64,000 bases of DNA, from the NCBI RefSeq assembly GCF_003325355.1, contig NZ_CP030850.1:1-64000 (forward strand), written 5' to 3'. A model generated the notes under the pieces. That model was given only the letters and a program-made list of their open reading frames with translations, was not told the origin of the DNA and did no database searches. Every line of letters starts with the position of its first letter. Within the stretch, counting starts at the first letter, position 1. The position numbers were made by a program, and so were the translations under genes. This DNA comes from Runella rosea (lineage in GTDB: Bacteria; Bacteroidota; Bacteroidia; Cytophagales; Spirosomataceae). Below, one piece after another: positions 15,250 through 47,237 of this stretch.

Positions 15250-15724
15250 CGTCGTCTAAGTTATCAGAAGTGAGCCAAGGCGGTTTGGGTTTGTCGGGGG
15301 TGTCGGGCTTTAAATCAGGCTGCTTATTTTTCCAGTACTTAGGCTGACGATTGTTAAGCCAGTAGATGATAGAAACAGGGTCGGGGGCTATGTACTTGAC
15401 CACTTTTTTAACGCAAACCATTTCCTCTTTCTCAACTTCTCCCTGTCCCGCCTTTACCTTTTTTAGCTCGTAATGCCTTTCCGTGAAATCAAAGCCCTTG
15501 GCACGTTTGTAAAGAGATTGGACAATTTTGGCGTCAGCAATAGCCTTTCCCTTTTTTAGGGACTCGCAAAATTCGGGGTATTTGATTTTCCACCGGTTAA
15601 TCGTGGCCTCGTCAACTCCGAACTCAAGCGCCAAAAAAGCATCGTCCGCCCCTAACAGGCAAAAGCTGTACGCTAAATCAGCAAATTTTTCATTGTATTT
15701 CGTGGGTCGGCCTGCCATGCCCAA
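15233..15724 (-). CDS. Terminase small subunit, 163 aa
   Basis: DNA-recognition partner of the large subunit. The N-terminal ~60 residues (GRPTKYNEKFADLAYSFCLL ... VDEATINRWKIKYPEF) form a helix-turn-helix of the type seen in phage terminase small subunits, followed by an oligomerisation helix region and a Pro/Asp-rich acidic tail that probably contacts the large subunit. A second ATG at 15718 (MAGRPTKY) is equally plausible. The predicted promoter -7 box ends at 15722, so the mRNA would be leaderless or nearly so, which is odd. Recurs at 62738-63229. Confidence 0.88.
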   Translation of the reverse strand: MGMAGRPTKYNEKFADLAYSFCLLGADDAFLALEFGVDEATINRWKIKYPEFCESLKKGKAIADAKIVQSLYKRAKGFDFTERHYELKKVKAGQGEVEKEEMVCVKKVVKYIAPDPVSIIYWLNNRQPKYWKNKQPDLKPDTPDKPKPPWLTSDNLDDDGPDE

Positions 15725-15754
15725 AAATACAACAATTGATGTAATTATTGCAAA
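15722..15754 (-). promoter_or_regulatory. Promoter with embedded 16-bp operator before terminase
   Basis: On the minus strand: TTTG (15751-15754), 21-base spacer, TATTTTTG (15722-15729). The near-palindrome TACAACAATTGATGTA (plus strand 15728-15743) fills the spacer. It is the likely main late promoter, right after the terminator of the radical SAM gene. Recurs at 63227-63259. Confidence 0.65.
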
Positions 15755-15776
15755 TAGCAGAGTGGTAATAAAAAAG

Positions 15777-15818
15777 GGGCGGGGTGATTGTTTTTAGATA
15801 CCAACGCGAACCCCGCCC
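15777..15818 (-). terminator. Terminator after the radical SAM gene
   Basis: Stem GGGCGGGGT / ACCCCGCCC, followed on the minus strand by CCTTTTTTATT. It begins right at the radical SAM stop codon (15823) and separates the early from the late transcript. Recurs at 63282-63323. Confidence 0.85.
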
Positions 15819-15822
15819 AATT

Positions 15823-16827
15823 TTAAACAAGCTCCGCTTCCTTTGGCGCGTGAATGACTTCCATTCCAAATCCAACAGATTTTTTTGCTAGGTGCTGGTT
15901 GTTTTGCATCCAGTTTTGAACAAACCACAATTGGCCACAACCGCCACCAATATCGTCTTGTCCTGCTGGGTCAAACATTCTGGTTGAAAATCCATGAGCC
16001 GCCAATTTTTGCATGAAACTTGAAGCTAGTTCACGCTGTCTAACATTTGCCGCCGCAATGCTTTCGTCACGCTCGCAAACGACTGAAATTGTAGCCTCAA
16101 ACACATCAGGGTTGAATAATGCTGCTATGTTGTCGGCGTCCTGTTGCGAACTGTTATGTTCGTGGGCGCAATAATTGAAAAATGGCTTGCGTCCTGTAAG
16201 AATCAAAAATGCCTCACCAATCTGGGAAATAGTAGTCAATTTTAACTTTCCTTTGAAGGGAATAAGCTTGTCTCTGCTTTCGTCGGTGCTTTCGTGAACA
16301 GAGAACTGCAAGCCAACGGTAGGGATTCTTTGGGCCATTTGTATAACTGGTTCATAGTTTATTTGAGGCCCAATTGAAGATATAAGCAGTTTTGCCTGTG
16401 GGTATTTTGAGTACAAGATTTCAAAAGCTTTTTCCAGTTCCTTGAAATTAAGAAGCGGCTCACCCATTGACATTACCATTATTTGAAACTTCTGAATTTT
16501 GGAAGCGTCAATGTTTTGGCTTTGTAGGCAGTGGTCAACTTGAAACACAATTTCCTCGGCTTTTAGGGAGCGAACAAAATAATCACCTGCCCCGCAAAAA
16601 CGGCAACCAACAGGACAGCCTGACTGGGTAGAGCAACAAATCACCGTTCTATCTTCGTAGGTCGGATATTTGTACAAAACGGCCTCGGCGACCGCATTAT
16701 CTTTTTCAAAGACGAACTTCATTACGTTTTCGTCTGAACTCTGAATGTTTTTGATTTCTGTGAACATTTTGCTAGAGATTAAATTGGATTGCTGAAAATT
16801 GATTGGTTTAAAGTTGTATTTCTCCAC
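15823..16827 (-). CDS. RlmN/Cfr-like radical SAM enzyme, 334 aa
   Basis: Radical SAM protein with the CxxxCxxC cluster motif at C71, C75, C78 in the RlmN/Cfr form (SGCPVGCRFCGAG). It also keeps a Cys seven residues earlier (C64, equal to RlmN C118), MSMGEP, and C297 in GGGCGQLW, matching the methyl-carrying C355. RlmN and Cfr methylate adenosine in 23S rRNA (RlmN also in tRNA), so an RNA-adenosine methyltransferase is the first guess; the real substrate is unknown. The N-terminal accessory domain of RlmN is almost absent (only ~60 residues before the motif). It overlaps the helicase-loader end by 20 bases and ends at a terminator, so it belongs to the early operon. The right copy (63328 on) is cut by the window edge. 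Confidence 0.85.
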   Translation of the reverse strand: MEKYNFKPINFQQSNLISSKMFTEIKNIQSSDENVMKFVFEKDNAVAEAVLYKYPTYEDRTVICCSTQSGCPVGCRFCGAGDYFVRSLKAEEIVFQVDHCLQSQNIDASKIQKFQIMVMSMGEPLLNFKELEKAFEILYSKYPQAKLLISSIGPQINYEPVIQMAQRIPTVGLQFSVHESTDESRDKLIPFKGKLKLTTISQIGEAFLILTGRKPFFNYCAHEHNSSQQDADNIAALFNPDVFEATISVVCERDESIAAANVRQRELASSFMQKLAAHGFSTRMFDPAGQDDIGGGCGQLWFVQNWMQNNQHLAKKSVGFGMEVIHAPKEAELV

Positions 16828-17737
16828 CTAAATTGACCGAAGCTCGGCGCAAATCAGGGGCATCAGAAGGGAAGTCAATGACGTTGAACATTTGGTACAA
16901 CCGGGACAAAAGGCGGTCGCCGTAAGCAGCGGCAAACTTTTCGTCGTCAAGGTTGGTGGTGATGTGGAAGTAATGATAATTCCCCTTTTGCGACCGCTCG
17001 ATTTCGTCTAAAATATTGGCGATGTACGATTTTTTGTACTTGCCCATGTCTTCACTACCTACGTCGTCAATACACCATCCAATGTAATTTTGTGAGGTAA
17101 GGTGTTTAAAATTGGCCGACGCCTGACGAAGATTTGCGTAGATATTGGGCGAGGTGCCATTGTCGCAAAGCGTGCGGATCTGCTCGGTCGAAATAAACTG
17201 AAAATTGGCAACGGGATTGATGCATTGCCCTTCTAAAGCAAAATTGGGTGAATAGGAAAGAATACGCATCGGAACGCTTTTGCCGCAACCCACTGGACCT
17301 CGAAGGCACAACCCTTTGTCGGGATGAATACCAGATTGCAGCATTCTGGAATCTCCAGAAAAGTACAGGCAAAGCAGATTGAACGTACTGGCGTTTGTGT
17401 CTGGACTGAAAGGTTTTGACCAGCGCTCGACCGCCGATAGTTCATTACCTACTTTGGTGGCAAGGTCTTTGAGCTGGCGGGCCGAAAGAGTGATTTTTGA
17501 GGATGGGGCGGAAATGGCGGACATGTACTGCTCTTTCTTTCGCTCCGTCAAACGTGCGTCAACAACCTTCCCCATGGCGTTGATAAGCTCTTTGTTGGTA
17601 ATTCCGAGCTCTGTAATCTGGTCATAGTTCGATAGGGCCCATTTGACCAGGCTTGACAGTGGGTGGACTGGGTCTGGTTGGTTGGCTGATGGGAGCAACG
17701 CCGTAGCCACTTGGTCGAATGATGTTGGATTTGCCAT
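16808..17737 (-). CDS. DnaC-like helicase loader ATPase, 309 aa
   Basis: AAA+ ATPase that would load the host replicative helicase at the phage origin. Walker A GPVGCGKS is at residues 147-154, Walker B CIDDVG at about 222-227, a sensor-1-like ITTNLDD follows, and a C-terminal arginine-rich DRLLSRL resembles the DnaC/IstB arginine-finger region. It is encoded directly after the O-like initiator, like lambda O and P, though it is of DnaC type. Its ATG at 17737 overlaps the initiator end by 116 bases; the upstream AGGAAA supports this start, but a later start is possible. Confidence 0.85.
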   Translation of the reverse strand: MANPTSFDQVATALLPSANQPDPVHPLSSLVKWALSNYDQITELGITNKELINAMGKVVDARLTERKKEQYMSAISAPSSKITLSARQLKDLATKVGNELSAVERWSKPFSPDTNASTFNLLCLYFSGDSRMLQSGIHPDKGLCLRGPVGCGKSVPMRILSYSPNFALEGQCINPVANFQFISTEQIRTLCDNGTSPNIYANLRQASANFKHLTSQNYIGWCIDDVGSEDMGKYKKSYIANILDEIERSQKGNYHYFHITTNLDDEKFAAAYGDRLLSRLYQMFNVIDFPSDAPDLRRASVNLGGEIQL

Positions 17738-18632
17738 TTTCCTGAATGATTTCGTTGTTGAATGATTTGTTGTTGAGATACGTTTCGGGGTTTTTTCGGT
17801 ACTTCTTGTCTGGGGTGGCCAGCACGTAGGCGGCGGTATGTTGCATGGCTTTTGCTCTTTCTTCGTCCGTCAGCCTTTCCCATTTCTTTTCAAGCTTCAC
17901 ACTTCGGTCAACTTTTTTCTGGTAAGCATTCCACCAATCGTCGAATGGGATGTTGATGGGCTTTTTTCGTTTCGGCAAACATTTGAGCCGTTTCCCCCGA
18001 CGAACCAGCAGCCGATGTAGCTCCGCCCGTCTTTTGGCCCTCAAAACCATTTCTTCTTTTTGGTTTTCTTTTTTATCAGGGGGTAGGGGGTTAATTTTTT
18101 CTTTTATTTTTTCTTCTTTGAGAGTCTCAAAATAAATATTAATATTATTACTACTCCCCCCGTGTGTGTATGCGTGAGGCTCATCGTCGGTTATCGTAGC
18201 ACTTTGTTCTACGTCGTAGTACTTAGTTCTACGATTCTCGCTTTGCTCCCCATTTTCCGTAGAACTTTGTTCTAAAATCTTTTCAATCGTAGTACTTAGT
18301 TCTACGGATTCATTGTTTGGCGTAGTACTTAGTTCTACGTTTTCAGATTTCGTAGTACTTAGTTCTACGATTGTACTTTTAGAGACGGACAGTTTACCTC
18401 CCGATTTTACCAAATGGCCCTGCTCAACAAGCCGGTTGGAGGCTTTGTCAATTCCCTTTTTAGACAATCCAAGTGCTTCGGCCAGCTGAGAAAGAGACAA
18501 AGGGGTTAAGCTGACATGAATCAACTCCATCAGTTCAAACTCGGAGGCTGAAACATTCAGTTTTTTACGTATCGCAAGCCTTTGGCTGATATTCATTTTC
18601 GTGGTTAGGCAATTAATGTAACTTGGTTGCAT
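17622..18632 (-). CDS. Replication initiator-like protein carrying the origin, 336 aa
   Basis: Probable O-like initiator. The N-terminal ~90 residues have a winged helix-turn-helix (SASEFELMELIHVSLTPLSLSQLAEALGLSKKGIDKASNRLVEQG). The middle (about 88-150) repeats VELSTT because six 19-bp iterons lie in the coding DNA (18195-18369). A basic stretch (KKENQKEEMVLRAKRRAELHR) and a second helical domain (FDDWWNAYQKK ... DEERAKAMQH) follow, then a Pro-rich tail. The layout (binding domain, iterons in gene, loader gene next) copies lambda O in plan, not in sequence. ATG at 18632 or at 18596 (MNISQRL) may be used. Confidence 0.75.
   Translation of the reverse strand: MQPSYINCLTTKMNISQRLAIRKKLNVSASEFELMELIHVSLTPLSLSQLAEALGLSKKGIDKASNRLVEQGHLVKSGGKLSVSKSTIVELSTTKSENVELSTTPNNESVELSTTIEKILEQSSTENGEQSENRRTKYYDVEQSATITDDEPHAYTHGGSSNNINIYFETLKEEKIKEKINPLPPDKKENQKEEMVLRAKRRAELHRLLVRRGKRLKCLPKRKKPINIPFDDWWNAYQKKVDRSVKLEKKWERLTDEERAKAMQHTAAYVLATPDKKYRKNPETYLNNKSFNNEIIQENGKSNIIRPSGYGVAPISQPTRPSPPTVKPGQMGPIEL
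18050..18160. other. AT-rich candidate unwinding element
   Basis: A strongly AT-rich, strand-biased tract (pyrimidine-rich on the plus strand) next to the iterons, still within the initiator gene. In lambda the unwinding region also adjoins the iterons inside gene O. Inference from composition and place. Confidence 0.5.
18195..18369. repeat. Six 19-bp iterons: candidate replication origin
   Basis: Copies at 18195, 18215, 18258, 18288, 18321 and 18351. Four (18215, 18288, 18321, 18351) are exactly CGTAGTACTTAGTTCTACG, an imperfect palindrome with CGTAG/CTACG ends; 18195 has two changes, and 18258 is more degenerate, ending TCTAAA. Starts are spaced 20, 43, 30, 33 and 30 bp, near whole helical turns. 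All lie inside the initiator gene. Very likely the binding sites of that initiator. Confidence 0.8.
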
Positions 18633-18681
18633 GGCCTTAATGAGCTATCCGAAGAATGAAGACTCATAGTTTTAAAATTGT

Positions 18682-18704
18682 GCCCCTGACTTCGTATCAG
18701 GGGC
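18682..18704 (-). terminator. Hairpin between 191-aa gene and initiator
   Basis: Eight-base-pair stem GCCCCTGA / TCAGGGGC with a 7-base loop; on the minus strand it is followed by ACAATTTTAAAA, a weak T run. It lies 36 bases past the 191-residue gene stop and 50 bases before the initiator start, so it may attenuate transcription into the replication genes. Confidence 0.5.
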
Positions 18705-18739
18705 GGGTTTAGCAGGGTAGTTAAGCGTGTGGCATTGAC

Positions 18740-19315
18740 CTATTTCTTCTTATTCTTGGGTGTTTCGTCGAGTGGTCCAAAAGGAGAGTCGTCTTGATCT
18801 TCTTTATCTTTCTCGGCTGCCGATAGTTCTTCGTCAATGGTTAACTGAAGTTCTTCCGTAGACATGGGGCGGGAGTCAACCATAAGGTCGGTGTATGGAT
18901 TATACCACTCGAAAGTTTTGTTAATGAGATTTTTGCGCTTGGGAAAGTACTCACGGACTTCTTTAGTGGTGAGCTTAACCGTTTCAATCAATTCCCAATT
19001 TTCAGGATGGAAATAATTCCAACAGAGTGTACTTGCGTCAATCATCTTTTTAGCCTCAACGGGCTCAAATTTGTAGCGGTCATTCGGGAAGTTGCCAGTA
19101 ATGTTTATTTCGGCATCCTTGGCCTCAATACGGCTTTTCCAAGTAGATACGGCGCTTTTTTTATCAAGCTCCATCTGGTTTTTCTCTCTCAGCTGCTTGT
19201 TGAGCTGTTCGCCCAGTTCAAGTAGTTCCTTCTCGGTAAAGATGTGCTTATACTGCACGCGCTCTGTTTTTTCGGGAAACACAAAAGGGACGGTCTGCGG
19301 TGTTTGGTTTGACAT
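18740..19315 (-). CDS. Early-operon protein, 191 aa, unknown
   Basis: Hydrophilic protein with a helical charged region at about residues 25-70 (FTEKELLELGEQLNKQLREKNQMELDKK is one segment), a Trp/Tyr-rich middle (LCWNYFHPENWELIETVK), and an acidic C-terminus ending in a lysine run (DETPKNKKK). No known family recognised. Lies between a RusA-like resolvase and the initiator in the minus-strand early operon, so a role in DNA metabolism is possible. Confidence 0.65.
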   Translation of the reverse strand: MSNQTPQTVPFVFPEKTERVQYKHIFTEKELLELGEQLNKQLREKNQMELDKKSAVSTWKSRIEAKDAEINITGNFPNDRYKFEPVEAKKMIDASTLCWNYFHPENWELIETVKLTTKEVREYFPKRKNLINKTFEWYNPYTDLMVDSRPMSTEELQLTIDEELSAAEKDKEDQDDSPFGPLDETPKNKKK

Positions 19316-19340
19316 GTGTTTTTGGTTGTTTAAAATGTGA

Positions 19341-20023: not shown

Positions 20024-20024
20024 A

Positions 20025-20972
20025 TCATTCAATAATTAACAGTTCGTAATTAGATTTCTTGATCTCAATCTTTCGCGTAGTTCGATTTTGAATCAACCCA
20101 CCCTCGCAGTTAGTAATTAGCTTTCCACCCCACGTTTCAACCGTGGCCTGAGAACTGTCACACGTTTTGACCGTGGCCTGAGAACTGTCACACGTTTTGA
20201 CCGTGGCCTGAGAACTGCCCCACGTTTCAACCGTGGCCTGAGAACTGTCACACGTTTTGACCGTGGCCTGAGAACTGTTACACGTTTTGACCGTGGCCTG
20301 AGAACTGCCCCACGTTTCAACCGTGGCCTGAGAACTGTCACACGTTTTGACCGTGGCCTGAGAACTGCCCCACGTTTCAACCGTGGCCTGAGAACTGTCA
20401 CACGTTTTGACCGTGGCCTGAGAACTGTCACACGTTTTGACCGTGGCCTGAGAACTGTCACACGTTTTGACCGTGGCCTGAGAACTGTCACACGTTTTGA
20501 CCGTGGCCTGAGAACTGTTACACGTTTTGACCGTGGCCTGAGAACTGTCACACGTTTTGACCGTGGCCTGAGAACTGTTACACGTTTCAACCGTGGCCTG
20601 AGAACTGCCCCACGTTTCAACCGTGGCCTGAGAACTGTCACACGTTTTGACCGTGGCCTGAGAACTGTTACACGTTTTGACCGTGGCCTGAGAACTGCCC
20701 AACAGCACAAGGAAGGCGTTTTCTGAGAAACCTAGTTGCCTTTCTCCGCGAATGAAAATATTATTTTCGGCCAAAATCGTTTCGCCAAACCATAGTTCCA
20801 ATCTTTCGGCATCGGTGGCATTGTTTCTAATTAACCACGCGATATTTTCTTTTACCACCGTCAATAATTCAGTGTGCGTTTCTGTCTTTGCGGCTCTTTT
20901 ATACTGTTCTGCGCAGGCGTCGGCCTGTTTTGCGGACAGCAGAAGTGCCGCTTTTGCTTCTTGAAATTCCAT
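20025..20972 (-). CDS. Decapeptide-repeat protein, 315 aa
   Basis: Three parts. Residues 1-92 form a helical Cys-poor head with no recognised family. Residues 93-282 are 19 tandem decapeptides, SSQATVKTCD (or ...TCN) mixed with SSQATVETWG. Residues 283-315 are a short beta-forming tail (GKLITNCEGG). The repeat, alternating small and hydrophobic residues every two and five positions, suggests a stacked beta-solenoid; similar SSQATV/SSxVxAYG repeats occur in phage proteins of unknown role. It sits between the RecE-like exonuclease and the RusA-like genes. No signal peptide. Function unknown. Confidence 0.7.
   Translation of the reverse strand: MEFQEAKAALLLSAKQADACAEQYKRAAKTETHTELLTVVKENIAWLIRNNATDAERLELWFGETILAENNIFIRGERQLGFSENAFLVLLGSSQATVKTCNSSQATVKTCDSSQATVETWGSSQATVETCNSSQATVKTCDSSQATVKTCNSSQATVKTCDSSQATVKTCDSSQATVKTCDSSQATVKTCDSSQATVETWGSSQATVKTCDSSQATVETWGSSQATVKTCNSSQATVKTCDSSQATVETWGSSQATVKTCDSSQATVKTCDSSQATVETWGGKLITNCEGGLIQNRTTRKIEIKKSNYELLIIE
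20127..20696. repeat. Nineteen 30-bp tandem repeats
   Basis: In-frame minisatellite within the decapeptide-repeat gene. Each unit holds GTGGCCTGAGAACTG, with variation mainly at two points that switch the peptide between KTCD/KTCN and ETWG. Near-identity of units points to recent expansion; copy number may vary between isolates. Confidence 0.95.
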
Positions 20973-20980
20973 TTGTGTTG

Positions 20981-22623: not shown

Positions 22624-22648
22624 GGTACTGTGTGTTTATGGTTAAAAA

Positions 22649-22855
22649 TTAAATGATGGTTATTTCTTCGGATTCTTTGGCGTAGTGCCCCGCTTCAAGG
22701 GCTTTTAATTCAAGCCATTTAGCGTGGACTTTATCAAAGTGCGCCTTTAGCTCCTCTTCGGTTTCGGGTGCCGTGTACATCAACTCTTGGACGCATCGGT
22801 TATAGCTGTGATAGGCGCTTAGGTAATGATGCAAGGATTGTTGGCTAGTCATCAT
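22649..22855 (-). CDS. Small hypothetical protein, 68 aa
   Basis: Two ATG codons in tandem (22855, 22852). Soluble helical protein rich in His, Tyr and Glu (HHYLSAYHSYNRC). Unknown. Lies 25 bases upstream of the 154-residue gene in the early operon. Confidence 0.6.
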   Translation of the reverse strand: MMTSQQSLHHYLSAYHSYNRCVQELMYTAPETEEELKAHFDKVHAKWLELKALEAGHYAKESEEITII

Positions 22856-22858
22856 GGC

Positions 22859-23127: not shown

Positions 23128-23138
23128 GGTTTTAAAGG

Positions 23139-23859: not shown

Positions 23860-23883
23860 GGTTTAAGAGGTAAGCGTTATTGG

Positions 23884-24189
23884 TTATCTTTCGAGGTACT
23901 TATTGATTTCACTTTCACGGATTCCGTAGGATTTGCCATCCGTCGACACCGTTTTGATTTTTTGCTCTGCAATGCGGCGGTAAATGGTCTTTGTCGATTT
24001 GCCGAGTCGTTTGGCGGTTTCTTCCACCGTCAGGATTGGGTCAAGCTGGGCGGGCCTTCTGCCATTGGTTTCGAGGCTTTTGATTCTTGCCTCTAACGCC
24101 TCTACTTTTTCCACAATGGCCATCAATGACGCGTATTGTTGCGGTGTAAGCAGGACGGCGGTGGTAGGGGTGTTGGTGGCGGCTCCCAT
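23884..24189 (-). CDS. Excisionase-like HTH protein, 101 aa
   Basis: The C-terminal half (ILTVEETAKRLGKSTKTIYR and following, ending YGIRESEINKYLER) is a helix-turn-helix of the MerR/excisionase (HTH_17) class; the N-terminal half is a coiled coil (ASLMAIVEKVEALEARIKSLE). Such proteins bend DNA for integrase-mediated excision or regulate early genes. It starts 4 bases after the Cro-like gene stop. Because it is made with the lytic early genes, an Xis role is sensible but unproven. Confidence 0.72.
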   Translation of the reverse strand: MGAATNTPTTAVLLTPQQYASLMAIVEKVEALEARIKSLETNGRRPAQLDPILTVEETAKRLGKSTKTIYRRIAEQKIKTVSTDGKSYGIRESEINKYLER

Positions 24190-24193
24190 GGCG

Positions 24194-24412
24194 TTAGGCT
24201 TTTTGGAGTTCTCTTTTGGTTGCGGTCAAAACTTTCTTTTGAGCGGATAGAATCGCCTTCAATGTTTTGGCCGATGGATTAACCTCGCCGTTCAATATCC
24301 GGTAGTAAGTAGCCCGATTTACCCCCGCTTCCTTAATGGCCGTAGTTACCAGTTGGTAGCCCATTAGCTCTTCGTGCCGTTCACTCAATTTATTTTGTTC
24401 TGCCTGTTGCAT
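24194..24412 (-). CDS. Cro-like HTH regulator, 72 aa
   Basis: Small DNA-binding protein: residues about 18-55 (YQLVTTAIKEAGVNRATYYR and ILNGEVNPSAKTLKAILSA) form an HTH. First gene of the minus-strand early operon, divergent from the CI-like repressor across a 127-bp control region, the classical Cro place. Promoter TTG-N21-TATATTTG lies just upstream. Confidence 0.75.
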   Translation of the reverse strand: MQQAEQNKLSERHEELMGYQLVTTAIKEAGVNRATYYRILNGEVNPSAKTLKAILSAQKKVLTATKRELQKA

Positions 24413-24446
24413 ATTGTTATATTTGCTAGTGCTTGTTTATTGAGTA

Positions 24447-24478
24447 CAAATATAGGTAAAAGGTCATAAAAATTCCAA
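24447..24478 (-). promoter_or_regulatory. Early lytic promoter
   Basis: On the minus strand: TTG (24476-24478), 21-base spacer, TATATTTG (24447-24454), a full match to TAnnTTTG. It reads into the Cro-like gene. The spacer holds one candidate operator repeat (24457-24466). Confidence 0.6.
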
Positions 24479-24512
24479 GCGATAGGACATATTTTTTTAG
24501 TAAAAGGTACTA
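24451..24512. promoter_or_regulatory. Candidate repressor operators
   Basis: Direct repeats TAAAAGGTCA (24457-24466) and TAAAAGGTAC (24501-24510), 44 bp apart, with a related GATAGGACAT (24481-24490) between them. All lie in the divergent CI/Cro control region. The spacing is about four helical turns. Probably bound by the CI-like and/or Cro-like proteins. Confidence 0.5.
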
Positions 24513-24539
24513 TTTTTTTAATCCAGCCATTCTACAAAA

Positions 24540-25292
24540 ATGAAAACCATTGATTTACAGATGAATACAGTAGGAGAGAGATTGAAATATTTACGCGAAA
24601 CGCTTGGGTTTAATCAGGTGGAGTTTGCGGAACGCGTTGAAATGGAGCAGTCTTATCTTTCAAAGCTGGAAAAAGGACATAAAGGACTAGGTAAAAGATT
24701 ATTAAAAATTATGTCCTCTACATTTGAGTTCAATGAAAATTGGCTTCTAACTGGGGAGGGGGAGATGTTCCCCGAAAAAAAAGAACGATCTGATGTTCAA
24801 GAAAATGGGGCTGCTTACCAGTCTCCCATGTTGAGAGGGCCCAGAGGGGTTACCTCCTATATCCCTGAGCATTTGATTAAAGTGCCTTTGATTGGCGTAA
24901 ATGCCCGTGCGGGATTTGTAGAGAATTTGGATAACTATACCGAATACATATCCGATTACGAGTATGTAGTGCCAGATTACGGAGTAAAATATGATAAGGC
25001 TATTGCCATTTCAGTTGACGGGGACAGTATGGAGCCGGGTATGCAAAGGGGAGATAGGGTATTGGCTTTTTTTCAAGAAATATCGGAATGGGAATATCTG
25101 AACCCCGGTATTTACGCTGTGGTGTACAGAAATTCATTTGTCATTAAAAGGATAATGAAAAACACTTTGCAGGCCACGGGCCAACTGGAATTGATTTCAG
25201 ATAACGCCATTCATGGGCCCATCACGGTAAAGATTGAAGATATAAAGGCGATTTGGAAGGTGACAGAATTGATTAGAAGAAGATTATATTAA
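24540..25292 (+). CDS. CI-like repressor, LexA/S24 type, 250 aa
   Basis: Lysogeny repressor. N-terminal XRE HTH at about residues 11-70 (GERLKYLRETLGFNQVEFAE and SYLSKLEKG). C-terminal S24 peptidase with Ser163 (DGDSMEPG) and Lys203 (FVIKRI), the Ser-Lys pair that drives self-cleavage, and an Ala124-Gly125 cleavage-like bond (NARAGF). RecA-triggered cleavage would make this prophage SOS-inducible. A second ATG (MNTVGERL, residue 8) may be the start. It is divergent from the Cro-like gene. Confidence 0.9.
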   Translation: MKTIDLQMNTVGERLKYLRETLGFNQVEFAERVEMEQSYLSKLEKGHKGLGKRLLKIMSSTFEFNENWLLTGEGEMFPEKKERSDVQENGAAYQSPMLRGPRGVTSYIPEHLIKVPLIGVNARAGFVENLDNYTEYISDYEYVVPDYGVKYDKAIAISVDGDSMEPGMQRGDRVLAFFQEISEWEYLNPGIYAVVYRNSFVIKRIMKNTLQATGQLELISDNAIHGPITVKIEDIKAIWKVTELIRRRLY

Positions 25293-28239: not shown

Positions 28240-28507
28240 AACAAATAAATTGTTTAAAACAAAGTTGTAGATTTTTTTTCGGGATTAGGTTAAATATTTC
28301 ATTTTTTCGCAAAAGGCCCCAAAAAGCTACACGAGCAACGCTTGTCCTGAACGAAGGCAAACTAAATCTGGGTTTGGCAAAAGCAGGCTTTATTGCCACA
28401 ATAACAATCGTGTGCCCGAAGAAGAAAAGAATGGAAAAGATATATTTCTTCAAAAAGCCTTGGCACACCATTGGCAACTTCTAATTGGTTTAAATATTGA
28501 TTTAATA

Positions 28508-28846
28508 ATGAGTCAAACATTATCAACAGTGCACTCCAAAGGCGAAAAGGTCAAGGCCATCCGAAAGGCACTCGGATTGACTCAGGTAGAGTTTGCCAAA
28601 AAACTTGAGACCAATCAGAATATTATTCCAGCATTGGAGAAAGGTAAGCGCAATTTGGGGCAGCGGGTCATTAATGATATACTGGCCACCTTTGCTGTCA
28701 GCAAAGATTGGTGGGAAAACGGGACAGGCGAAATGTTTTTGTCTGACAAACACCAAAAGTTAATTGTGGTGATTGACCCAATGGAAATTTCGGTGGATGA
28801 GCTCAGGAATATAAAGGGTGTGAAACTGGTAAATGTTTCCAGTTAG
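28508..28846 (+). CDS. Second XRE regulator without S24 domain, 112 aa
   Basis: HTH at about residues 11-68 (GEKVKAIRKALGLTQVEFAK, then IIPALEKGKRNLGQRVINDI), clearly similar to the phage CI-like repressor's binding domain, including SKDWWENGTGEMF against NENWLLTGEGEMF. It has a ~45-residue tail instead of a peptidase domain, so it is not self-cleaving. It could be a co-repressor, an anti-immunity factor or an integrase regulator, being just before the integrase. Confidence 0.75.
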   Translation: MSQTLSTVHSKGEKVKAIRKALGLTQVEFAKKLETNQNIIPALEKGKRNLGQRVINDILATFAVSKDWWENGTGEMFLSDKHQKLIVVIDPMEISVDELRNIKGVKLVNVSS

Positions 28847-29005
28847 CCCACCATTACACTCACTTTTGGGGCATTTACAGCACTCACCCCACCCAATACC
28901 AGACCTCGCTAATTCAGTATTACCGTAACTATTTATAAATCAATTAAATACACGCTAAGAAAGTGTCTCCTCTTCGTCACATTGTTTTTAGGACAATTGG
29001 GTACA

Positions 29006-29048
29006 AAATCCCGTCTTTATGCGACAATATCGCATGGAGGCGGGATTT
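29006..29048. repeat. Long inverted repeat before the integrase
   Basis: Stem AAATCCCG...CGGGATTT enclosing ATGCGA-caata-TCGCAT; with G-U pairs the RNA form is a continuous 19-bp stem with a 5-base loop. It is in the gap between the XRE gene and the integrase. It may end transcription of the XRE gene or form part of the attachment site (attP) where integrase binds. Confidence 0.6.
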
Positions 29049-29125
29049 GCGCTTTTAGGGACGAAGCGTCTGGACAGAATCTTGGACAATCTCGGACAGT
29101 TAAACCCGACCCCAAAAACCATCCA

Positions 29126-30436
29126 ATGCTTAACGTAAAATTCAAACTCAGAAAACTCGGACCCGACCCTGCTTCGGTGGGTCGGGTATTCCTGGTCTGC
29201 TACTTTAACCGGGAAGAATTCATGTTCTACACTTCGCTGAATGCTGCGCGTCACCAATGGGATGATAAAAAGCAGGAATTCAGACGAAACTATGACGGCT
29301 GGCAAAAGGCCAACATGGTACTTGACAATTTGAAAAACATCGTAAAAACCTACGAAAAGGACTGTATTCTTGCTCAAAAGCCTTTGGAGGCCGATGTTTT
29401 AAAGCGGCTGCTTCAGGGAAAGAAACAGCAGGATACCAATCAAAGGCCCATCTCTAAATGGTACGAAATGTTCATTGAGGCAAAGCAAATGGAGGGACTA
29501 AAACCCGCCTCGATTCGAGCCCATAAGGCGACGATGGAACATTTTCTGGATTTCATAAAGACAAAAGCCAAAAATTTGACCCTTGACACATACCCGGACG
29601 AAACCCATCAGCGATTTTTGGCTTATCTGCGTTCAAAACGGGATTATCACCCTAATTATTTGGGAGCTATTCACAAAAATTTAAAGGTGTTCTTTCGGTT
29701 CTGTACCGAAAACGGGGCTAAACTCGCCGTAAATCACGCCCGCCTGAAACGAATTTACATTCCGCCAAAACGGGAATTTTTAACGCAGGAAGAACTGAAA
29801 AAATGGATAGCACTGGACGAAACAGCTTGGAATGTGTGGCTTGAATCACTATCGGGCGGTAAAGACCATATCCCCGAATGGCAGTACATTGAAAAGACGC
29901 GTGATGCGTTTTTCTTTCAAGCGCTGACGGGCCTGAGGCATTCCGACCTATTCCGGTTGACCGAAGATCACCTTTTGGAACTAGAGGGTGGCGCCAAAGC
30001 CCTGCGTTTTGTGCCACAGAAAACCACCTCCGTTAAAAATCGCTCCACACGCCAGGTTACCATCGGACTGATTCCCCCGGCGCTGGCCATACTGGAAAAA
30101 TACAAGGGTGGCCTGTTTTTACTGCCAGTCTCTCATTTGCGCCATTATAACAGGTTTATACAGCTTGCCGCTCATGCAGCGGGTTTTACAGAGGCAGTTG
30201 AGGTGGTTGAATTTATCAAGGGCGTGCCTGTGTCGGTACAAAAGCCAAAGTACGAAACCATTACCTCCCACATCGCCCGACATACGTTCGGCACAATTTC
30301 GCGGGTATTGGGGATTGACCTCTCTGACCTTAAAGACCTGATGGGGCACTCTGATGTTCGTACCACGGCCATTTATGACCACATGGCCAATGAATATAAG
30401 GCCATCAAGCAGTTAAAAGCGTGGGGCGACTTTTAA
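29126..30436 (+). CDS. Tyrosine integrase, 436 aa
   Basis: Site-specific recombinase that inserts and excises the phage. N-terminal arm-binding domain (MLNVKFKLRKLG ... FYTSLNAARHQW), core-binding SAM-like domain (about residues 110-210), and a catalytic domain with Arg in TGLRHSDL, the HxxR pair in HIARHT, GH in LMGHSDV, and Tyr in TTAIYDH. The form is like Bacteroidetes/CTnDOT-type integrases. Start at 29126 is chosen over 28982 because the added residues are unlike integrase and overlap the inverted repeat. Followed by a bidirectional terminator. Confidence 0.9.
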   Translation: MLNVKFKLRKLGPDPASVGRVFLVCYFNREEFMFYTSLNAARHQWDDKKQEFRRNYDGWQKANMVLDNLKNIVKTYEKDCILAQKPLEADVLKRLLQGKKQQDTNQRPISKWYEMFIEAKQMEGLKPASIRAHKATMEHFLDFIKTKAKNLTLDTYPDETHQRFLAYLRSKRDYHPNYLGAIHKNLKVFFRFCTENGAKLAVNHARLKRIYIPPKREFLTQEELKKWIALDETAWNVWLESLSGGKDHIPEWQYIEKTRDAFFFQALTGLRHSDLFRLTEDHLLELEGGAKALRFVPQKTTSVKNRSTRQVTIGLIPPALAILEKYKGGLFLLPVSHLRHYNRFIQLAAHAAGFTEAVEVVEFIKGVPVSVQKPKYETITSHIARHTFGTISRVLGIDLSDLKDLMGHSDVRTTAIYDHMANEYKAIKQLKAWGDF

Positions 30437-31017: not shown

Positions 31018-31047
31018 CAAAAATACAACAATTGATGTATTTTCAAA
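31018..31047 (-). promoter_or_regulatory. Promoter with embedded 16-bp operator before the 161-aa gene
   Basis: On the minus strand: TTTG (31044-31047), 18-base spacer, TATTTTTG (31018-31025). The near-palindrome TACAACAATTGATGTA (plus strand 31024-31039) lies in the spacer. Leader to the ATG is about 40 bases. Confidence 0.65.
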
Positions 31048-31294
31048 CACTAAAAAAGGCGGACATTTCGCTACGGATTTGCGAATTAAACTGTGAGACT
31101 TTGGTGGTAAGGGCGTCGGCGGTATAAACAACAGACCCCAAGTCGACAGTGACGATTTTATTTTCGGACGTCAAGATAATTGCACCGCCCTCGGTAGCAT
31201 AGCCATCGTTGAGCAGTTGCCCGTAAAGCTCGTTAGATTTTGCCCTAAATGCCGTGCCGGCAGTGTCAGTGGGTTGGATTCTTGGTAGTGCCAT
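31043..31294 (-). CDS. Small late protein, 83 aa
   Basis: Begins MALPRIQPTDTAG; helical (AFRAKSNELYGQLLNDG) with a short beta part. Unknown. Its start overlaps the LytTR gene end by 29 bases. Its end overlaps the downstream promoter region. Confidence 0.6.
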   Translation of the reverse strand: MALPRIQPTDTAGTAFRAKSNELYGQLLNDGYATEGGAIILTSENKIVTVDLGSVVYTADALTTKVSQFNSQIRSEMSAFFSV

Positions 31295-31592
31295 GATATA
31301 ACCGATAACCTTCTTTTAAATTAATCAACAACTCTGGTATTTTTCGTCTGGATGGCTCAACTGTATACCCCGATTGCATTGTGATTTTGACTGGCTCAAT
31401 CTGGGCGATACGGTGCGGATTCACGGCAACGCACTTATGAACACGCGTTAGGCTCAAATAATCCGTAAGCCTACCGAGCGTCTTGGAACTAAGTACTTTT
31501 TGACCGTCAATCATCGTAATCAAGCTGTAATTGCTTCGCCCCTCGATGTACTCAACCGCTTCGGCGGTGATTATGAAGCCGTCTACTTTCAT
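31266..31592 (-). CDS. LytTR-type DNA-binding regulator, 108 aa
   Basis: A free-standing LytTR domain: AVEYIEGRSNYSLI, ...KTLGRLTDYLSLTRVHKCVAVNPHRI (the core of this fold, with the L-x-x-...-F-x-R-x-H-R-x-x-xN-like pattern). No response-regulator part, as is common in Bacteroidetes phages and plasmids. Its ATG overlaps the stop of the spanin-like gene (ATGA). It is a candidate late activator and may bind the 16-bp operators, though usual LytTR sites differ. Confidence 0.78.
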   Translation of the reverse strand: MKVDGFIITAEAVEYIEGRSNYSLITMIDGQKVLSSKTLGRLTDYLSLTRVHKCVAVNPHRIAQIEPVKITMQSGYTVEPSRRKIPELLINLKEGYRLYHGTTKNPTH

Positions 31593-42548: not shown

Positions 42549-43471
42549 TAGCTTATAAGGATGTAAGTGTCAATATCAATTAAGAGCTCCGTAGTTGAGA
42601 GAGCATAACCGATGGGCTGCCAAACAAGACCCACCTCATCGGGCCCCTCCGTAGAAATACCACCCGGTTCAGTCCAAGAAAGAAAGTATTGTTCTCCTGG
42701 CACCAAATCAATGTAAGTTTTGATGCTATCAAAGCGAGGTTCGACCGCCTGTCCAACCTTGACAGTTTTGTCGATGTAGCCATGGGCAACATGGTCTACG
42801 TCGGTGCCAATGGCGGGACGCATTTTAGAGACACCGCCATCGTCGTAGATATTTACCAGCATACCTGCCCAGATGTGCTCTGACGCAACCACCTGCGCTG
42901 CGCTGGTAATCTGTATTTTGAAAACATCATCCACGTATGCCGCAATGGAGTCTGTGTAGCGCACGGTAATCGGGTAAGAACCCGTTGCGCCAGTTGGAGC
43001 GGTGCCAGAAATAATACGCGTACCCGAATTGTAAGAAAGCCAACCCGGTAGGCCAATAACGGTTACGCTATCAATTGTACCATTGGGCGAGGTGGCATTG
43101 TTGGGGGAAAGTAGAATTTCAATCGCCTCCCCATAAGCAAAGGCAATATCGGCAATGGGCGAAGCAACAATCGGGAGAGAGCCACCACCACCACCTCCAC
43201 CACCCGTTCCGGTCAGCGTTTCAAATTCGGCCAACAATTCAGTGCGCAAATCGGCCAATAGTTCATCTACTTGTGTGATTGAATAGAAGTCGGAAAGTAG
43301 AATTTCGAACGATTCATCACTTTCGGTCAAAAAACGAATCAGCGGCACGCCGTCAACATCCGTGTCGGTTTCACCGCGCACGATGATAGCGTCATCGGCA
43401 TTTGCGTTGAATATGCTTCGAAAATCAGCAAATGTGTGAGAAGCAAGAACCTTGGTGACAACCAGCGACAT
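42548..43471 (-). CDS. Tail protein with Ig-like domain, 307 aa
   Basis: Residues ~1-90 are an N-terminal domain; a glycine run (GTGGGGGGGGSLP) links to an Ig/cadherin-like domain at ~100-190 (ADIAFAYGEAIEILLSPNN ... SGTAPTGATGSYPITVRYTDS) and a C-terminal beta domain. The Ig-like part is of the putative Ig (He_PIG) kind used by phages for weak surface binding. It is coupled to the large fibre gene by a one-base overlap. Upstream lies a 16-bp operator and a TATCTTTG box. Confidence 0.7.
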   Translation of the reverse strand: MSLVVTKVLASHTFADFRSIFNANADDAIIVRGETDTDVDGVPLIRFLTESDESFEILLSDFYSITQVDELLADLRTELLAEFETLTGTGGGGGGGGSLPIVASPIADIAFAYGEAIEILLSPNNATSPNGTIDSVTVIGLPGWLSYNSGTRIISGTAPTGATGSYPITVRYTDSIAAYVDDVFKIQITSAAQVVASEHIWAGMLVNIYDDGGVSKMRPAIGTDVDHVAHGYIDKTVKVGQAVEPRFDSIKTYIDLVPGEQYFLSWTEPGGISTEGPDEVGLVWQPIGYALSTTELLIDIDTYILIS

Positions 43472-43569
43472 AGTGAGTAATTGAAAAAACAGATGTTTTC
43501 AATGCTCGGACAAAAAAGAAGGGGTTTGGTAACCCGCTTGGTCAGAGCAGGTCGCTGGTTGCTGGTGAA

Positions 43570-43613
43570 CAAAGATAGAAAAGTTATTAATTTTAAATAC
43601 AACAATTGATGTA
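43570..43613 (-). promoter_or_regulatory. Operator and -7 box before the 307-aa gene
   Basis: The 16-bp motif TACAACAATTGATGTA is at 43598-43613. The best -7 box on the minus strand is TATCTTTG at 43570-43577, 20 bases further toward the gene, so the motif here is upstream of, not inside, a standard spacer (or a poorer box TATTTAAA is used). Leader to the ATG is ~98 bases. Confidence 0.5.
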
Positions 43614-43617
43614 TTTT

Positions 43618-46251
43618 CTATCCGAACGCGCTCATTAAACAGTTTTCGGCCGCAAGCGGTACGGGATTGGATTCAAACTGTTCAAACGTCCATCCTTCAT
43701 AATCGTCACAGTTTTCCTGTTGTTGGTTTACCAGCGAGGCGTAAGTTCTCAGGAGTTTTACTGACGACTTTCCCGTTTTTTTCTGCCTGCGAATCTCCCA
43801 TGGATAGCCGCTTATGTCATTCCCTTCAAGATCGGGAATGGTTATAAATCCGTAATCGGTTTCGTCATTATTCCATCCTCTGACAGCATTACGGATGGCG
43901 TTAAATTCAGCCTCGGTGAGCCTACATTCAAATGTGATCCATTTAGGTACATAGATACGTTTAGCGCGGTTGGCATTTTCGATGCTAATGTCAGCTTTTT
44001 CAGTTAACAGAAGTCGGTCAGGGTTTGATGCTGGGAATGCATCGGTGGTTTTGAGCTGCGTAACCAAATCACCATTAAGCTTGGTAAAGGTATTTTTATA
44101 CACTTCGGCCACACTTTTGTAAGCCGAACTAGAGTTTAACCATGCTGCGTGGTTGAGTAGGTTCTGTTTTGGGGTTCGACGCAAATTGTAGGATGTTTCG
44201 GGTTCCAATAGGTTTTGAACCGTACTAAAATTCTCGTTCTTTTCAGCATACCCCGCAAAGTCATAGGGTTGAATCGTGGCGCTGGCCACCACTTCACCGG
44301 TGGCAAATCGGTCTAGTACAATCACCGTCTGCACTCCAAAGTTGGTAATCTTAACAATGGTAAATACGTCATTGTGGTGAGTTGTGCCCGAAATGCTAAG
44401 TTTTACGCCGACTTCACAAAATGAGGGCTTGACAGGCAAAAGCAAAAGCGGTCGACCCGCAAATAATAAAGGATTTTTGGTAAATGTTGCCGTGCCCACA
44501 TAAGACGGGATAGCAGGATTGACGCTGATAATAAACAAATCATCGTCGTAACGCGTGGAGTCTTTGGGCGTGGATTCAAATTGCTCTCGGCGGGTGGCCT
44601 CGATGGCGTAGCCCGAAGCAATCAGGTTTGAAGTTGCTTGGTACCGCCCATTTTCTGTTTGGATGGGTGTAGAGTATTCATGATAGGCGTTGAATTCGTC
44701 AAGGTAGTTTAGGCCCTCATCCAGATATTTACCGTAACCAATTTGGATATTGGAAAATATAAGCTCTTTGGCCGTATCAATAACCAAGTTTGACACCTCA
44801 TCAATTTTAAGAATCTCCCCACCTTTATAGAAATACTCCGCCTTTTCCATGCGTATGATGGGCACTCCGCTCTGGATTGTATACTCGTATCCTACGTGAA
44901 AAATGGCGTTAATATCTTCGACGATTTCTTTAAAAGAGCGTTGAATCCCTTTGTCGAACCGCCGTATTTGAAAGCCATTCGTTTTGAGATAGTTGGCGCC
45001 ATCGCCATCCGAAGGGTACAACTCAGAAGATTTTCCAAAAAAGGAAGAACGGAAACAGTTGTTTTGTCCAGTAATTAAACGAATGGATTGTTGAATGGCA
45101 TCATAAGCCAAAAGGCCTTTGGTGGGAGACTGTACATTTCTGGAAACTCCATCAATCTGCATCGAAAAATTACTACTGACCGCTTTCAGCGATGTAGAAC
45201 CAAGCTCATTGGCCCCGCTATAAGTGTATTTTATTTCAATGAATAAGTATACATTATCGCCTTGCCGAATCTCAAGCGCATTTGTCGCCGTGCCATCAAC
45301 GGTAAATCTGACATAAAGAGGCCCGTAATAAAACCCATCAGGTTCGTTGTACTTTCCATCCCCGATACGGTAACGGGCCAAAATGGCCGTTTCTCTTTCG
45401 TGCACCAAATAAGGCTGTGCCGTGAAATTGGTAATGGCGGCACGGTTCAAGGAAAATTGGCGCTGTTTTAAATTTAAGTCGCAGGTAACATTCAGTGCAA
45501 CGGTTACGGTGTATTTGCCATCCGAGAAGGCTTTCCAAAAAGGATTTTTATCGGCTACGGGGTCAGAGAAGGCAATGCCGAACGGGTTGTTGAAGGTGGT
45601 TTTTAGGTCGTTTTTGGTGGGACTTGACAGGTTGGGCATTACATAAACATCGCTATCGCCCATCGTTAGTGACTCTGCTGTATCAGTAGCCGATGTAACC
45701 TGATATATCTCCCGAAATGCTTTGGAGTGCAGAATGGTAGTTTTGACAACAGCGGGAGTAACCGATGTGCCATCCAGCGCCACCGAATCCAATAAGTTCA
45801 CTTTTGTATCTGCTTTGGCCTGAATGCGGTTTTGTAGGGTATCGGCTTCCACGTCACATGTGACCACGCCCGCCGACTCACGAAAGGTGTTCATGTTAAG
45901 CTTGCCTACGTGTTCAATGATTCGGGTTTCTTCATCAATAATGGCCCCGATTTGTAGAAGTACTTTGGCATCTGAACCCTGTTCTTCGTCGATGGATTTA
46001 AGGATGGCTTTACCGGCTGGGCAGTCAGAAGCCAGTTTGAAATTATCCAGTGCTTCATAGTTGAAGCCATGCCATTGCGGATTGCGGCTGATGACCATTG
46101 AAACATCATCCCATGTGGTAGGCTCTTCAATATCGGTCGTGAGACTTGCGCCGCCCAGGCTGTACACCAGTTGGAAGAAAGTGGGGTACATATCCCGAAA
46201 CCCATCAATGGTATGGGGCTGACCTAAGTAGTCGAATATGGTAGATTGCAT
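43618..46251 (-). CDS. Tail tip/baseplate-like protein, 877 aa
   Basis: Large soluble protein without signal peptide, encoded first in the tail-fibre operon, where tail tip or hub proteins are usual. Residues ~170-450 are beta-rich; one part ~420-560 includes RSFKEIVEDINAIFHVGYEY, resembling a phage tail hub/baseplate segment. No motif gives a firm family. Its leader shares a promoter box and a start-codon hairpin with the tape-measure gene (46256-46279, box 46300-46307), suggesting joint control of two long tail proteins. Confidence 0.68.
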   Translation of the reverse strand: MQSTIFDYLGQPHTIDGFRDMYPTFFQLVYSLGGASLTTDIEEPTTWDDVSMVISRNPQWHGFNYEALDNFKLASDCPAGKAILKSIDEEQGSDAKVLLQIGAIIDEETRIIEHVGKLNMNTFRESAGVVTCDVEADTLQNRIQAKADTKVNLLDSVALDGTSVTPAVVKTTILHSKAFREIYQVTSATDTAESLTMGDSDVYVMPNLSSPTKNDLKTTFNNPFGIAFSDPVADKNPFWKAFSDGKYTVTVALNVTCDLNLKQRQFSLNRAAITNFTAQPYLVHERETAILARYRIGDGKYNEPDGFYYGPLYVRFTVDGTATNALEIRQGDNVYLFIEIKYTYSGANELGSTSLKAVSSNFSMQIDGVSRNVQSPTKGLLAYDAIQQSIRLITGQNNCFRSSFFGKSSELYPSDGDGANYLKTNGFQIRRFDKGIQRSFKEIVEDINAIFHVGYEYTIQSGVPIIRMEKAEYFYKGGEILKIDEVSNLVIDTAKELIFSNIQIGYGKYLDEGLNYLDEFNAYHEYSTPIQTENGRYQATSNLIASGYAIEATRREQFESTPKDSTRYDDDLFIISVNPAIPSYVGTATFTKNPLLFAGRPLLLLPVKPSFCEVGVKLSISGTTHHNDVFTIVKITNFGVQTVIVLDRFATGEVVASATIQPYDFAGYAEKNENFSTVQNLLEPETSYNLRRTPKQNLLNHAAWLNSSSAYKSVAEVYKNTFTKLNGDLVTQLKTTDAFPASNPDRLLLTEKADISIENANRAKRIYVPKWITFECRLTEAEFNAIRNAVRGWNNDETDYGFITIPDLEGNDISGYPWEIRRQKKTGKSSVKLLRTYASLVNQQQENCDDYEGWTFEQFESNPVPLAAENCLMSAFG

Positions 46252-46255
46252 AAAA

Positions 46256-46279
46256 CCAAAGCGTTAGAAGGTGCTTTGG
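46256..46279 (-). promoter_or_regulatory. Leader hairpin at the 877-aa gene start
   Basis: CCAAAGC / GCTTTGG stem with a 10-base loop, ending 4 bases before the ATG. The following ~25 leader bases (AAGCGACC...) and the TATCTTTG box at 46300-46307 match the tape-measure leader at 50808-50863. A conserved element that could control translation start. Confidence 0.6.
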
Positions 46280-46299
46280 TCGCTTGGTTGCTGGTAGGG

Positions 46300-46307
46300 C
46301 AAAGATA
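46300..46307 (-). promoter_or_regulatory. Promoter -7 box before the 877-aa gene
   Basis: TATCTTTG on the minus strand matches TAnnTTTG and is preceded by a T/A-rich tract (TTTTTTTATA). No clear -33 TTTG. Equivalent box at 50856-50863. Confidence 0.5.
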
Positions 46308-46335
46308 TAAAAAAAGACTTTGTATATGGCCTTGG

Positions 46336-46872
46336 CTAAATTGAACTCATTCGCATAAGATCAAAATACATTTGTCTTGTTGGCTCTGATTTATCACTTT
46401 CTGTTAAATATGAAAAACCCATTTTTTCATAGAAGCCCGTTGATTGAGCATAGGCATCAACTGTGATAAATCTACATCCAGTCTTATTATTATGGAAAAA
46501 GGAATACTTGATGTAATCAATTATAAAGGTGCCTATTCCTGCTTTTTTTACACCCTCGCATACGGCAAGCCTACCTATTTTTACACATGGATAAGTTTTA
46601 TAATGCTTTCTATATGGAATTTTACGTTGAATTTTATTTCTTACTTCTTTAAAATCTTCAGAAGTAAGTTTGTCATTTAAGACACAAAAATAACCCAAAA
46701 CAGCGTCATTATCTTCATCTTCAACGATATAGGTGACGGCCAGTAATTCATTTTGATAGAGTAAGGAGTCCTGATAAAAAAATTCGTTTAAGTCTTTGTC
46801 ATCACAATCAAAGATTTTGTCTTTGAGGGGATAACTATTACTTAAACGAATTAGGCGAAACTGGCCTGACAT
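46336..46872 (-). CDS. GNAT acetyltransferase, toxin-like, 178 aa
   Basis: Acetyl-CoA-dependent acetyltransferase fold. Motif A core: VKIGRLAVCEGVKKAGIGTF (about residues 97-116), with the KxAGIG acetyl-CoA loop, and FYEKMGF (147-153) with a catalytic-position Tyr. The N-terminal FDCDDKDLNEFF matches the TacT/AtaT-style GNATs that acetylate aminoacyl-tRNA. It follows a 50-residue gene by 20 bases, as toxins follow antitoxins. Target unproven. It may stabilise the lysogen or exclude other phages. Its AT-rich DNA suggests acquisition separate from the tail genes. Confidence 0.78.
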   Translation of the reverse strand: MSGQFRLIRLSNSYPLKDKIFDCDDKDLNEFFYQDSLLYQNELLAVTYIVEDEDNDAVLGYFCVLNDKLTSEDFKEVRNKIQRKIPYRKHYKTYPCVKIGRLAVCEGVKKAGIGTFIIDYIKYSFFHNNKTGCRFITVDAYAQSTGFYEKMGFSYLTESDKSEPTRQMYFDLMRMSSI

Positions 46873-46892
46873 GGAATATATATTATCGAATG

Positions 46893-47045
46893 CTAATCTA
46901 CCAATTTGAATTTATTGAAGTTCTCCCGCATTCTTTCCATTTCAGTCCGGGACAATTTTGTCTTTTCTGACTCAGCAATGTTTTTGGCAAAGCGAGCCGC
47001 GTCTCTACCTGTTAAAACAGGTGTTTCCTTTATTGGTCGTGCCAT
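46893..47045 (-). CDS. Small partner (antitoxin-like) of the GNAT, 50 aa
   Basis: MARPIKETPVLTGRDAARFA and a charged helical tail (AESEKTKLSRTEMERMRENF). Short proteins with a start like this, P-I-K-E-T-P-V-L-x-G-x-D-A, are often found just upstream of GNAT genes in Bacteroidetes; I know this from general familiarity, not from a search. The reading frame is too short for most gene callers. Role as antitoxin is an inference from gene order, spacing and small basic character. Confidence 0.68.
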   Translation of the reverse strand: MARPIKETPVLTGRDAARFAKNIAESEKTKLSRTEMERMRENFNKFKLVD

Positions 47046-47221
47046 AATTTAGAATGGTTTAAGTTTTAGCCTGACCCTTAAATCAATTATTGATCTTAAG
47101 CAGACTATTAATTGGTTATTGTATAAAAACTGTGCTAGTGTCGTTTTATGCTGCAAAATTACTAAGTAAAAATTAAAAGTACAAATGCAACACATTTGCA
47201 ATCAGTTGATTAACAGTAAAT

Positions 47222-47237
47222 TACAACAATTGATGTA
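47222..47237 (-). promoter_or_regulatory. 16-bp operator upstream of the GNAT pair
   Basis: TACAACAATTGATGTA, same as the other four sites. On the minus strand the adjacent box is TAATTTAC, a poor match to TAnnTTTG, and no -33 TTTG is well placed. It is 177 bases before the 50-residue gene, so it may control the tail/GNAT transcript less strongly. Confidence 0.5.

Follow-up and report, generated by a model that had tools for sequence, protein, structure and literature searches.

The 64,000-nucleotide stretch of Runella rosea DNA analysed here (contig NZ_CP030850.1, positions 1 to 64,000; the window) starts within a prophage that repeats with a period of ~47.5 kb. In this prophage, we found a 16-bp near-palindrome, TACATCAATTGTTGTA in the sense orientation, of which the 47.5-kb unit carried five exact copies (14008, 15728, 31024, 43598, and 47222). 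All five copies lay on the minus strand in the same orientation, in gaps between genes, and upstream of minus-strand late genes. These results suggested that the 16-mer is probably a regulatory element of late promoters that is read by a phage-encoded factor. More tentatively, we favour the narrower reading that it is the cis-acting element of a dispersed late regulon, activated through such a factor.

The five coordinates given by a first-pass annotation of this DNA were all exact, and its claim that the copies were always intergenic and upstream of minus-strand late genes was borne out. By our gene calls, intergenic DNA made up 3103 of the 47505 bp of the unit, and the placement of five of five copies in gaps had a probability of ~1e-6 if the sites are independent. 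Counting the motif in the unit and the host, as the annotation had proposed, gave five copies in the unit and 10 exact copies in the 7.16-Mb genome, 10 of 10 in prophage DNA. Two of the latter, at 61513..61528 and 63233..63248 on the minus strand, corresponded to the 14008 and 15728 sites but belonged to the unit's second copy; three more stood at the far end of the contig. Other genome matches at up to 2 mismatches were single and scattered. At up to 3 mismatches, the window held 15 matches, compared with a mean of 0.76 and a maximum of 4 in shuffled sequence; the 15 matches consisted of seven sites read on both strands of the dyad (two of them second-unit duplicates) and one 3-mismatch match at 22776. 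No other match with fewer than 3 mismatches was found in a scan of the unit. When the gaps were compared by shared 14-mers, a word was common to five gaps, compared with at most two in 100 shuffles. The 16-mer was self-complementary at 14 of 16 positions, and its unmatched T/T pair stood the same way round in all five copies. The annotation had described the motif as phage-wide; however, the early and immunity regions of the unit contained no copy, and the 16-mer is late-only.

In Flavobacterium johnsoniae, promoters combine a weak -33 element with a -7 element, TAHHTTTG, whose T is at -12 and whose G is at -5, and many transcripts start 4-5 nt downstream of the latter (PMC6847099). The last TA of the 16-mer formed the TA of a -7 box of this Bacteroidota type, and the box lying flush with the motif was perfect at two sites, had one mismatch at one, and was weak at two. 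Box 1 (15728..15743) stood 9 nt upstream of the start codon (ATG, 15718) of the terminase small subunit (TerS) gene; it was flush with an exact TATTTTTG (15722-15729) and had TTTG 21 nt upstream. Box 5 (31024..31039), which precedes the gene of a 161-residue protein ending the late strand, was also flush with an exact TATTTTTG, and its TTTG stood 18 nt upstream. Box 2 (14008..14023), in the gap between the terminase large subunit (TerL) and a head gene, had a flush -7 box with one mismatch (TAATATTG) and a spacer of 20. The flush boxes were weak at box 4 (43598..43613; TATTTAAA), before the gene of a 307-residue Ig-domain protein, and at box 3 (47222..47237; TAATTTAC), upstream of a 50-residue open reading frame (ORF) paired with a GNAT gene; neither site had TTTG at -33. 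The annotation had placed three of the copies in promoter spacers next to a -7 box, which agreed with the exact boxes at 15728 (spacer 21) and 31024 (spacer 18) and less well with the mismatched box at 14008. The five flush boxes matched TTTG better in sum than did 270 TA dinucleotides in gaps (p=6.5e-4), and three of the five sites had TTTG 17-23 nt upstream, at -33 (p=0.005); both tests were framed after the sites had been seen. These results supported the proposal that the repeat is a promoter-linked site of late genes. The box placement at 14008 was supported by the leader downstream of it, CTTGCTGGTGTA, which was exact in the relative G210 and had 2 of 12 mismatches in the relative G198. 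The leader lay 17 nt from the start of the -7 box at 14008, and 20 nt (G210) and 21 nt (G198) from the start of a TATCTTCA box, a similarity of distance to which no statistical test was applied.

An independent parallel was found in an order-level relative (G445) and lends support to a late-promoter role. In this genome of ~5.4 Mb, TTGTGCTTAYTTTAC occurred six times, always exactly, on one strand of a single contig (C18) and within 27 kb, and 1-mismatch copies occurred nowhere else. Five copies lay in the stretch that we read, all on the late strand, and the sixth lay ~1 kb beyond it. One copy lay 42 nt upstream of an internal Met that we treat as the TerS start (phrog_51), and TerL (phrog_979) comes next. 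Another preceded a head gene assigned to phrog_8193, as is the gene at 13215 in the R. rosea prophage, and three lay in the structural/tail region. An extra gene separated TerL from the head gene in G445, and no TTGTGCTTAYTTTAC was found near its CI gene.

With the published -7 numbering, the flush element would lie at about -26 to -11, with its dyad centre at about -18.5. We propose that the phage encodes a regulator, probably a dimer and produced once early transcription has taken place, that would bind the 16-mer and stand in for a good -33 element, letting the host RNA polymerase start; the terminase, head, tail-fibre, and terminal late units would then be switched on together. Activation is favoured because the box is late-only, directional, exact, and fused to an often poor -7 box, and a helped promoter fits the weak flush boxes and the absence of TTTG at -33 at two sites. 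Several points weigh against this reading. An activator at -26 to -11 would crowd the polymerase, and sites in this position are more often repressor operators. Two of the boxes adjoin perfect host -7 sequences, which might need no help. At box 1, transcription is predicted to start within or at the ATG of TerS, which would make the transcript leaderless unless the site acts otherwise. The flush arrangement was not uniform, since better -7 boxes stood downstream of the 43598 and 47222 copies, at 43577 and 47161: the TTG of the motif at box 4 stood 22 nt before a TATCTTTG box, and a host-type promoter, TTG-N20-TAATTTTG, began 37 nt downstream of box 3. Relative to these boxes, the motif would be centred near -40 and -80, and the offsets from the flush arrangement, ~22 and ~62 bp, were near two and six helical turns, although two cases are no proof. 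Neither a sigma-factor domain nor a late activator was found among the 31 window proteins that were scanned against at least one library; the remaining window ORFs and the early proteins of G445 lay outside that scan. Among the relatives, 12 of 16 had no significant repeated gap word (p >=0.01, 14-mers), and G445 is the one clear parallel, since the words of G178, G181, and G188 are of the leader or start-codon type. Finally, in the relatives G178 and G180, a palindrome on the same late promoter also lies near CI, which suggests repression.

The strongest alternative is that a phage repressor, such as the second XRE protein, uses the 16-mer as its operator; it would cover the -7 and -33 elements and silence each late promoter directly in the lysogen. 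Activation appeared somewhat likelier, with direct repression nearly as likely; the sign of regulation and the binder are what we infer from these arrangements. The operator reading is consistent with a dyad over the core promoter and with the perfect -7 box at two sites, and it draws on G178 and G180, in which most head and tail genes, in the same order, and several early genes are shared and the 16-mer is absent. Their gaps between TerL and the head gene carried the palindrome TTGGAAATWATGTCCAA, followed by a TACTTTTG box. Related palindromes occurred in G178 in the gap between CI and the early genes (14929, 14960) and near the 3' end of CI (14201, 14219), and an exact TTGGAAATWATGTCCAA lay within the CI area of G180. 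At up to 2 mismatches, each of the two genomes had one further match outside the prophage. In the R. rosea prophage, by contrast, the gap between CI and the early operon held unrelated repeats, and no 16-mer was found there or near the second XRE gene. A symmetric operator would also not usually be conserved exactly with a fixed asymmetry, and the better promoter at the 47222 site starts at a distance of 37 nt.

The immunity gap (24413..24539) contained two operator-like repeats, AGGTAAAAGGTCATA (24454), inside the spacer of the early promoter, and TAGTAAAAGGTACTA (24498). Neither resembled the 16-mer, and both are likely CI/Cro sites. Since the immunity region carries these different repeats and no 16-mer, we set aside as unlikely binders the CI-like repressor (24540..25292, plus strand; helix-turn-helix (HTH) and peptidase S24 domains) and the Cro-like HTH protein of 72 residues encoded by the first early gene (24194..24412, minus strand). 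The second XRE protein (28412..28846, plus strand; 144 residues) is a possible binder. An excisionase/HTH_17 protein of 101 residues (23884..24189, minus strand), assigned by model matches, is a candidate regulator, and it and unassigned early proteins are further possible binders. A LytTR-domain protein of 108 residues (31266..31592, minus strand) is encoded inside the late region. LytTR proteins bind paired direct repeats; the 16-mer is a dyad. Homologues of this protein were found in G198 and G210, two genomes with no 16-mer at up to 1 mismatch genome-wide and no significant repeated word, and no LytTR match was found in phage records at E 0.01.

Three other readings appeared improbable. 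A non-transcriptional site for packaging, recombination, or partition, or a linker at module boundaries, would account for boxes at module borders, one of which precedes TerS. However, the copies share one orientation with transcription and are fused to -7 boxes, and the 31 scanned proteins included no partition protein and no site-specific recombinase besides the integrase. Slightly less credible is a stoperator-like roadblock, at which a lysogen repressor bound in one orientation would halt read-through into the late genes. In cluster A (L5-type) mycobacteriophages, the immunity repressor binds more than 20 stoperator 13-mers spread over the genome (PMC9283540, PMC6550527). The 16-mer shares with them repetition, a single orientation (five of five), intergenic placement, and incomplete symmetry, and box 1 lies merely 9 nt before TerS. 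Nevertheless, the unit has five late-only, near-palindromic sites instead of more than 20 asymmetric, genome-wide ones, and a roadblock would leave the adjacency to the -7 box unexplained. Least credible is the MerR-type activator site in a long spacer that the annotation had put forward: the motif does lie between TTTG and a flush -7 box at three sites, and one encoded protein has a MerR/excisionase-like HTH, whereas MerR-regulated promoters have a dyad centred in a long spacer of fixed length and here the spacers are 18, 20, and 21, the dyad centre is 6 bp from the -7 box, and two sites have no TTTG at -33.

In function, the boxes resembled the dispersed late promoters of P1 and Mu or the operators of L5-type phages, and they belonged demonstrably to none of these systems. 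The late promoters of P1, which depend on Lpa (gp10) and host SspA, carry an inverted repeat just upstream of the -10 element, at about -22, have no -35 element, and serve several dispersed late operons. The 16-mer is likewise an inverted repeat adjoining the -7 box at late promoters, and two of its five boxes are weak; however, the host promoter type is unrelated, and the repeat is centred at about -18.5 instead of -22. A TTTG is present at the -33 position at three of the five sites. Conserved inverted repeats also occur in phiC31, in many intergenic places, where they are bound by the immunity repressor. They share with the 16-mer the repetition of an intergenic palindrome within one phage, but they are more numerous and the 16-mer is absent from the immunity region. 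According to PMC8201110, the late genes of P1 require both Lpa and SspA, and promoters that depend on Lpa have been mapped. In Mu, one phage activator (C) serves several late promoters (PMC4461284). The sites bound by C overlap the -35 element or stand upstream of it, whereas the 16-mer abuts the -7 box.

TerL was matched in 20 of 222 family genomes and the portal in 14 of 222 and 11 of 390, counts that include the R. rosea genome each time and come from overlapping sets. A TerL search of viral_contigs and genome_contigs yielded no relative that could be confirmed. Of the 222 family genomes, 48 had a 16-mer match at up to 1 mismatch, none clustered as in R. rosea, and exact copies outside its own genome were limited to G074 and G153, with one each. 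In IMG/VR, 79 stretches carried one exact copy apiece; in L099 and L109, which also encode a related TerL, the 16-mer lay antisense inside a called ORF, and these were set aside as chance. Among named genomes, 38 stretches had one match apiece to a 19-base extension. The regions of 16 relatives and three reference phages together contained a single match to the 16-mer at up to 2 mismatches (G202, 2 mismatches). The portal match in G526 contained an internal stop, and this genome and the wider DNA around the weaker TerL matches of G082 and G088 were left out of the comparison; on the CI side, the contigs of G211 and G197 ended ~11 and ~5 kb from the portal.

The sharing of 14-mers between gaps beat all 100 shuffles in eight of 20 sets (the unit, G178, G181, G188, G445, FPSV-S2, BV57P3, and BU2-2). 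The words of G178 (GTATTAATTGATTA), G181, and BU2-2 (ACAATTTAAAAA) lay near start codons, and that of G188 was a leader. Words of 12-16 bases with at least three copies, mainly in gaps, occurred in six of 19 TerL stretches (G081, G180, G178, G056, and both of G181), the G056 word being A/T-rich. Three named phages, with Flavobacterium, Bacteroides, and Phocaeicola hosts, carried repeated gap words, several of which were -7 promoters or leaders. In G415, TATATGCTTACTTTACG occurred twice in the prophage, with two 2-mismatch matches outside it; neither this two-copy word nor a pair in G439 was significant in the 14-mer shuffle test. We also observed a common leader before the head gene in G188, G211, and G201, with a hairpin of the CACTACGGACGGTG type and a distal CCGTC just before the ATG, which is possibly a structured late leader.

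A broader and rather unlikely extension is that some Bacteroidota temperate siphophages use private late-promoter codes, each lineage having its own box fused to the -7 element and read by a fast-diversifying phage specificity factor of an undescribed kind. The TerS, head, and tail modules of related phages would then answer to different words, such as the 16-mer, TTGTGCTTAYTTTAC in G445, and the CI-area palindromes in G178 and G180. If relatives have exchanged one regulatory word for another at the TerL/head-gene promoter, this would clearly exemplify rewiring while gene order is conserved, and a box that can be predicted from sequence and has a parallel in another prophage would offer a way to call late operons in Bacteroidota. 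The timing of late genes in temperate Bacteroidota phages seems little described; among the literature titles listed, none was on this subject, leaving aside the contents of papers on crAss-like phages.

The prophage is of a temperate, siphophage-like Bacteroidota type. Near 28950 and 76455, the repeated stretch comes to an end beside a tyrosine integrase gene (28982..30436, plus strand) that adjoins the copy junction at ~28950. The far end of the contig, read over 6784646-6804999 (the contig ends at 6810953), repeats the unit sequence from 28965 on and round to the part at the window start. If the contig is circular, we infer a tandem prophage pair with overlapping contig ends; the segments 1-28950 and 28951-76455, with the contig end, may reflect either a tandem arrangement of two prophage copies or a duplication made in assembly. 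In the first copy, the tape-measure gene is broken into two ORFs close to the start of the contig, whereas that of the second copy is open.

Early genes run on the minus strand from 24412 to 15823 and encode Cro-like HTH, excisionase-type HTH, exonuclease VIII-like, RusA-like, replication-initiator-like, DnaC-like, and radical-SAM proteins; the genes for packaging, head, and tail come next, also on the minus strand. CI (24540), the second XRE gene (28412), and the integrase gene are on the plus strand. TerS (15233..15718, minus strand) matched phrog_309, and TerL (14059..15249, minus strand) had ~35% identity to annotated phage TerL among the matches listed; the head gene 3' of box 2 (13215..13853, minus strand) belonged to phrog_8193, major head protein. 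An Rfam scan of the window at the gathering threshold gave no match.

A second late promoter word, TATATCTTTG, was observed in the gaps 3302-3641 and 46252-46335, with CTATCTTTG in the gap 43472-43617. A hairpin-like leader (CAAGCGACCAAAGC...GCTTTGG) is common to the gaps 3302-3641 and 46252-46335, where it precedes the tape-measure gene and the gene of an 877-residue protein; the gap 43472-43617 shares only ACCAGCAACC(A)GCGACC with the gap 46252-46335. At 46336-47045, the GNAT-domain protein is preceded by the 50-residue ORF with its own host-type promoter, and the two look like a cargo pair of the toxin-antitoxin type. Within the replication-initiator-like gene (17622-18632), six 15-bp repeats of the TAGNACTTNNTTCTA type (18197-18367) are probable origin iterons. 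The phage-borne radical-SAM protein (15823-16827) scored just over the Pfam Radical_SAM cut-off, and it resembles RNA methyltransferases of the RlmN/Cfr type, yet it fell far under the NCBIfam cut-offs. The protein encoded at 20025-20972 contains ~19 near-identical 10-residue repeats of the SSQATVKTCD type, which derive from a 30-bp DNA repeat.

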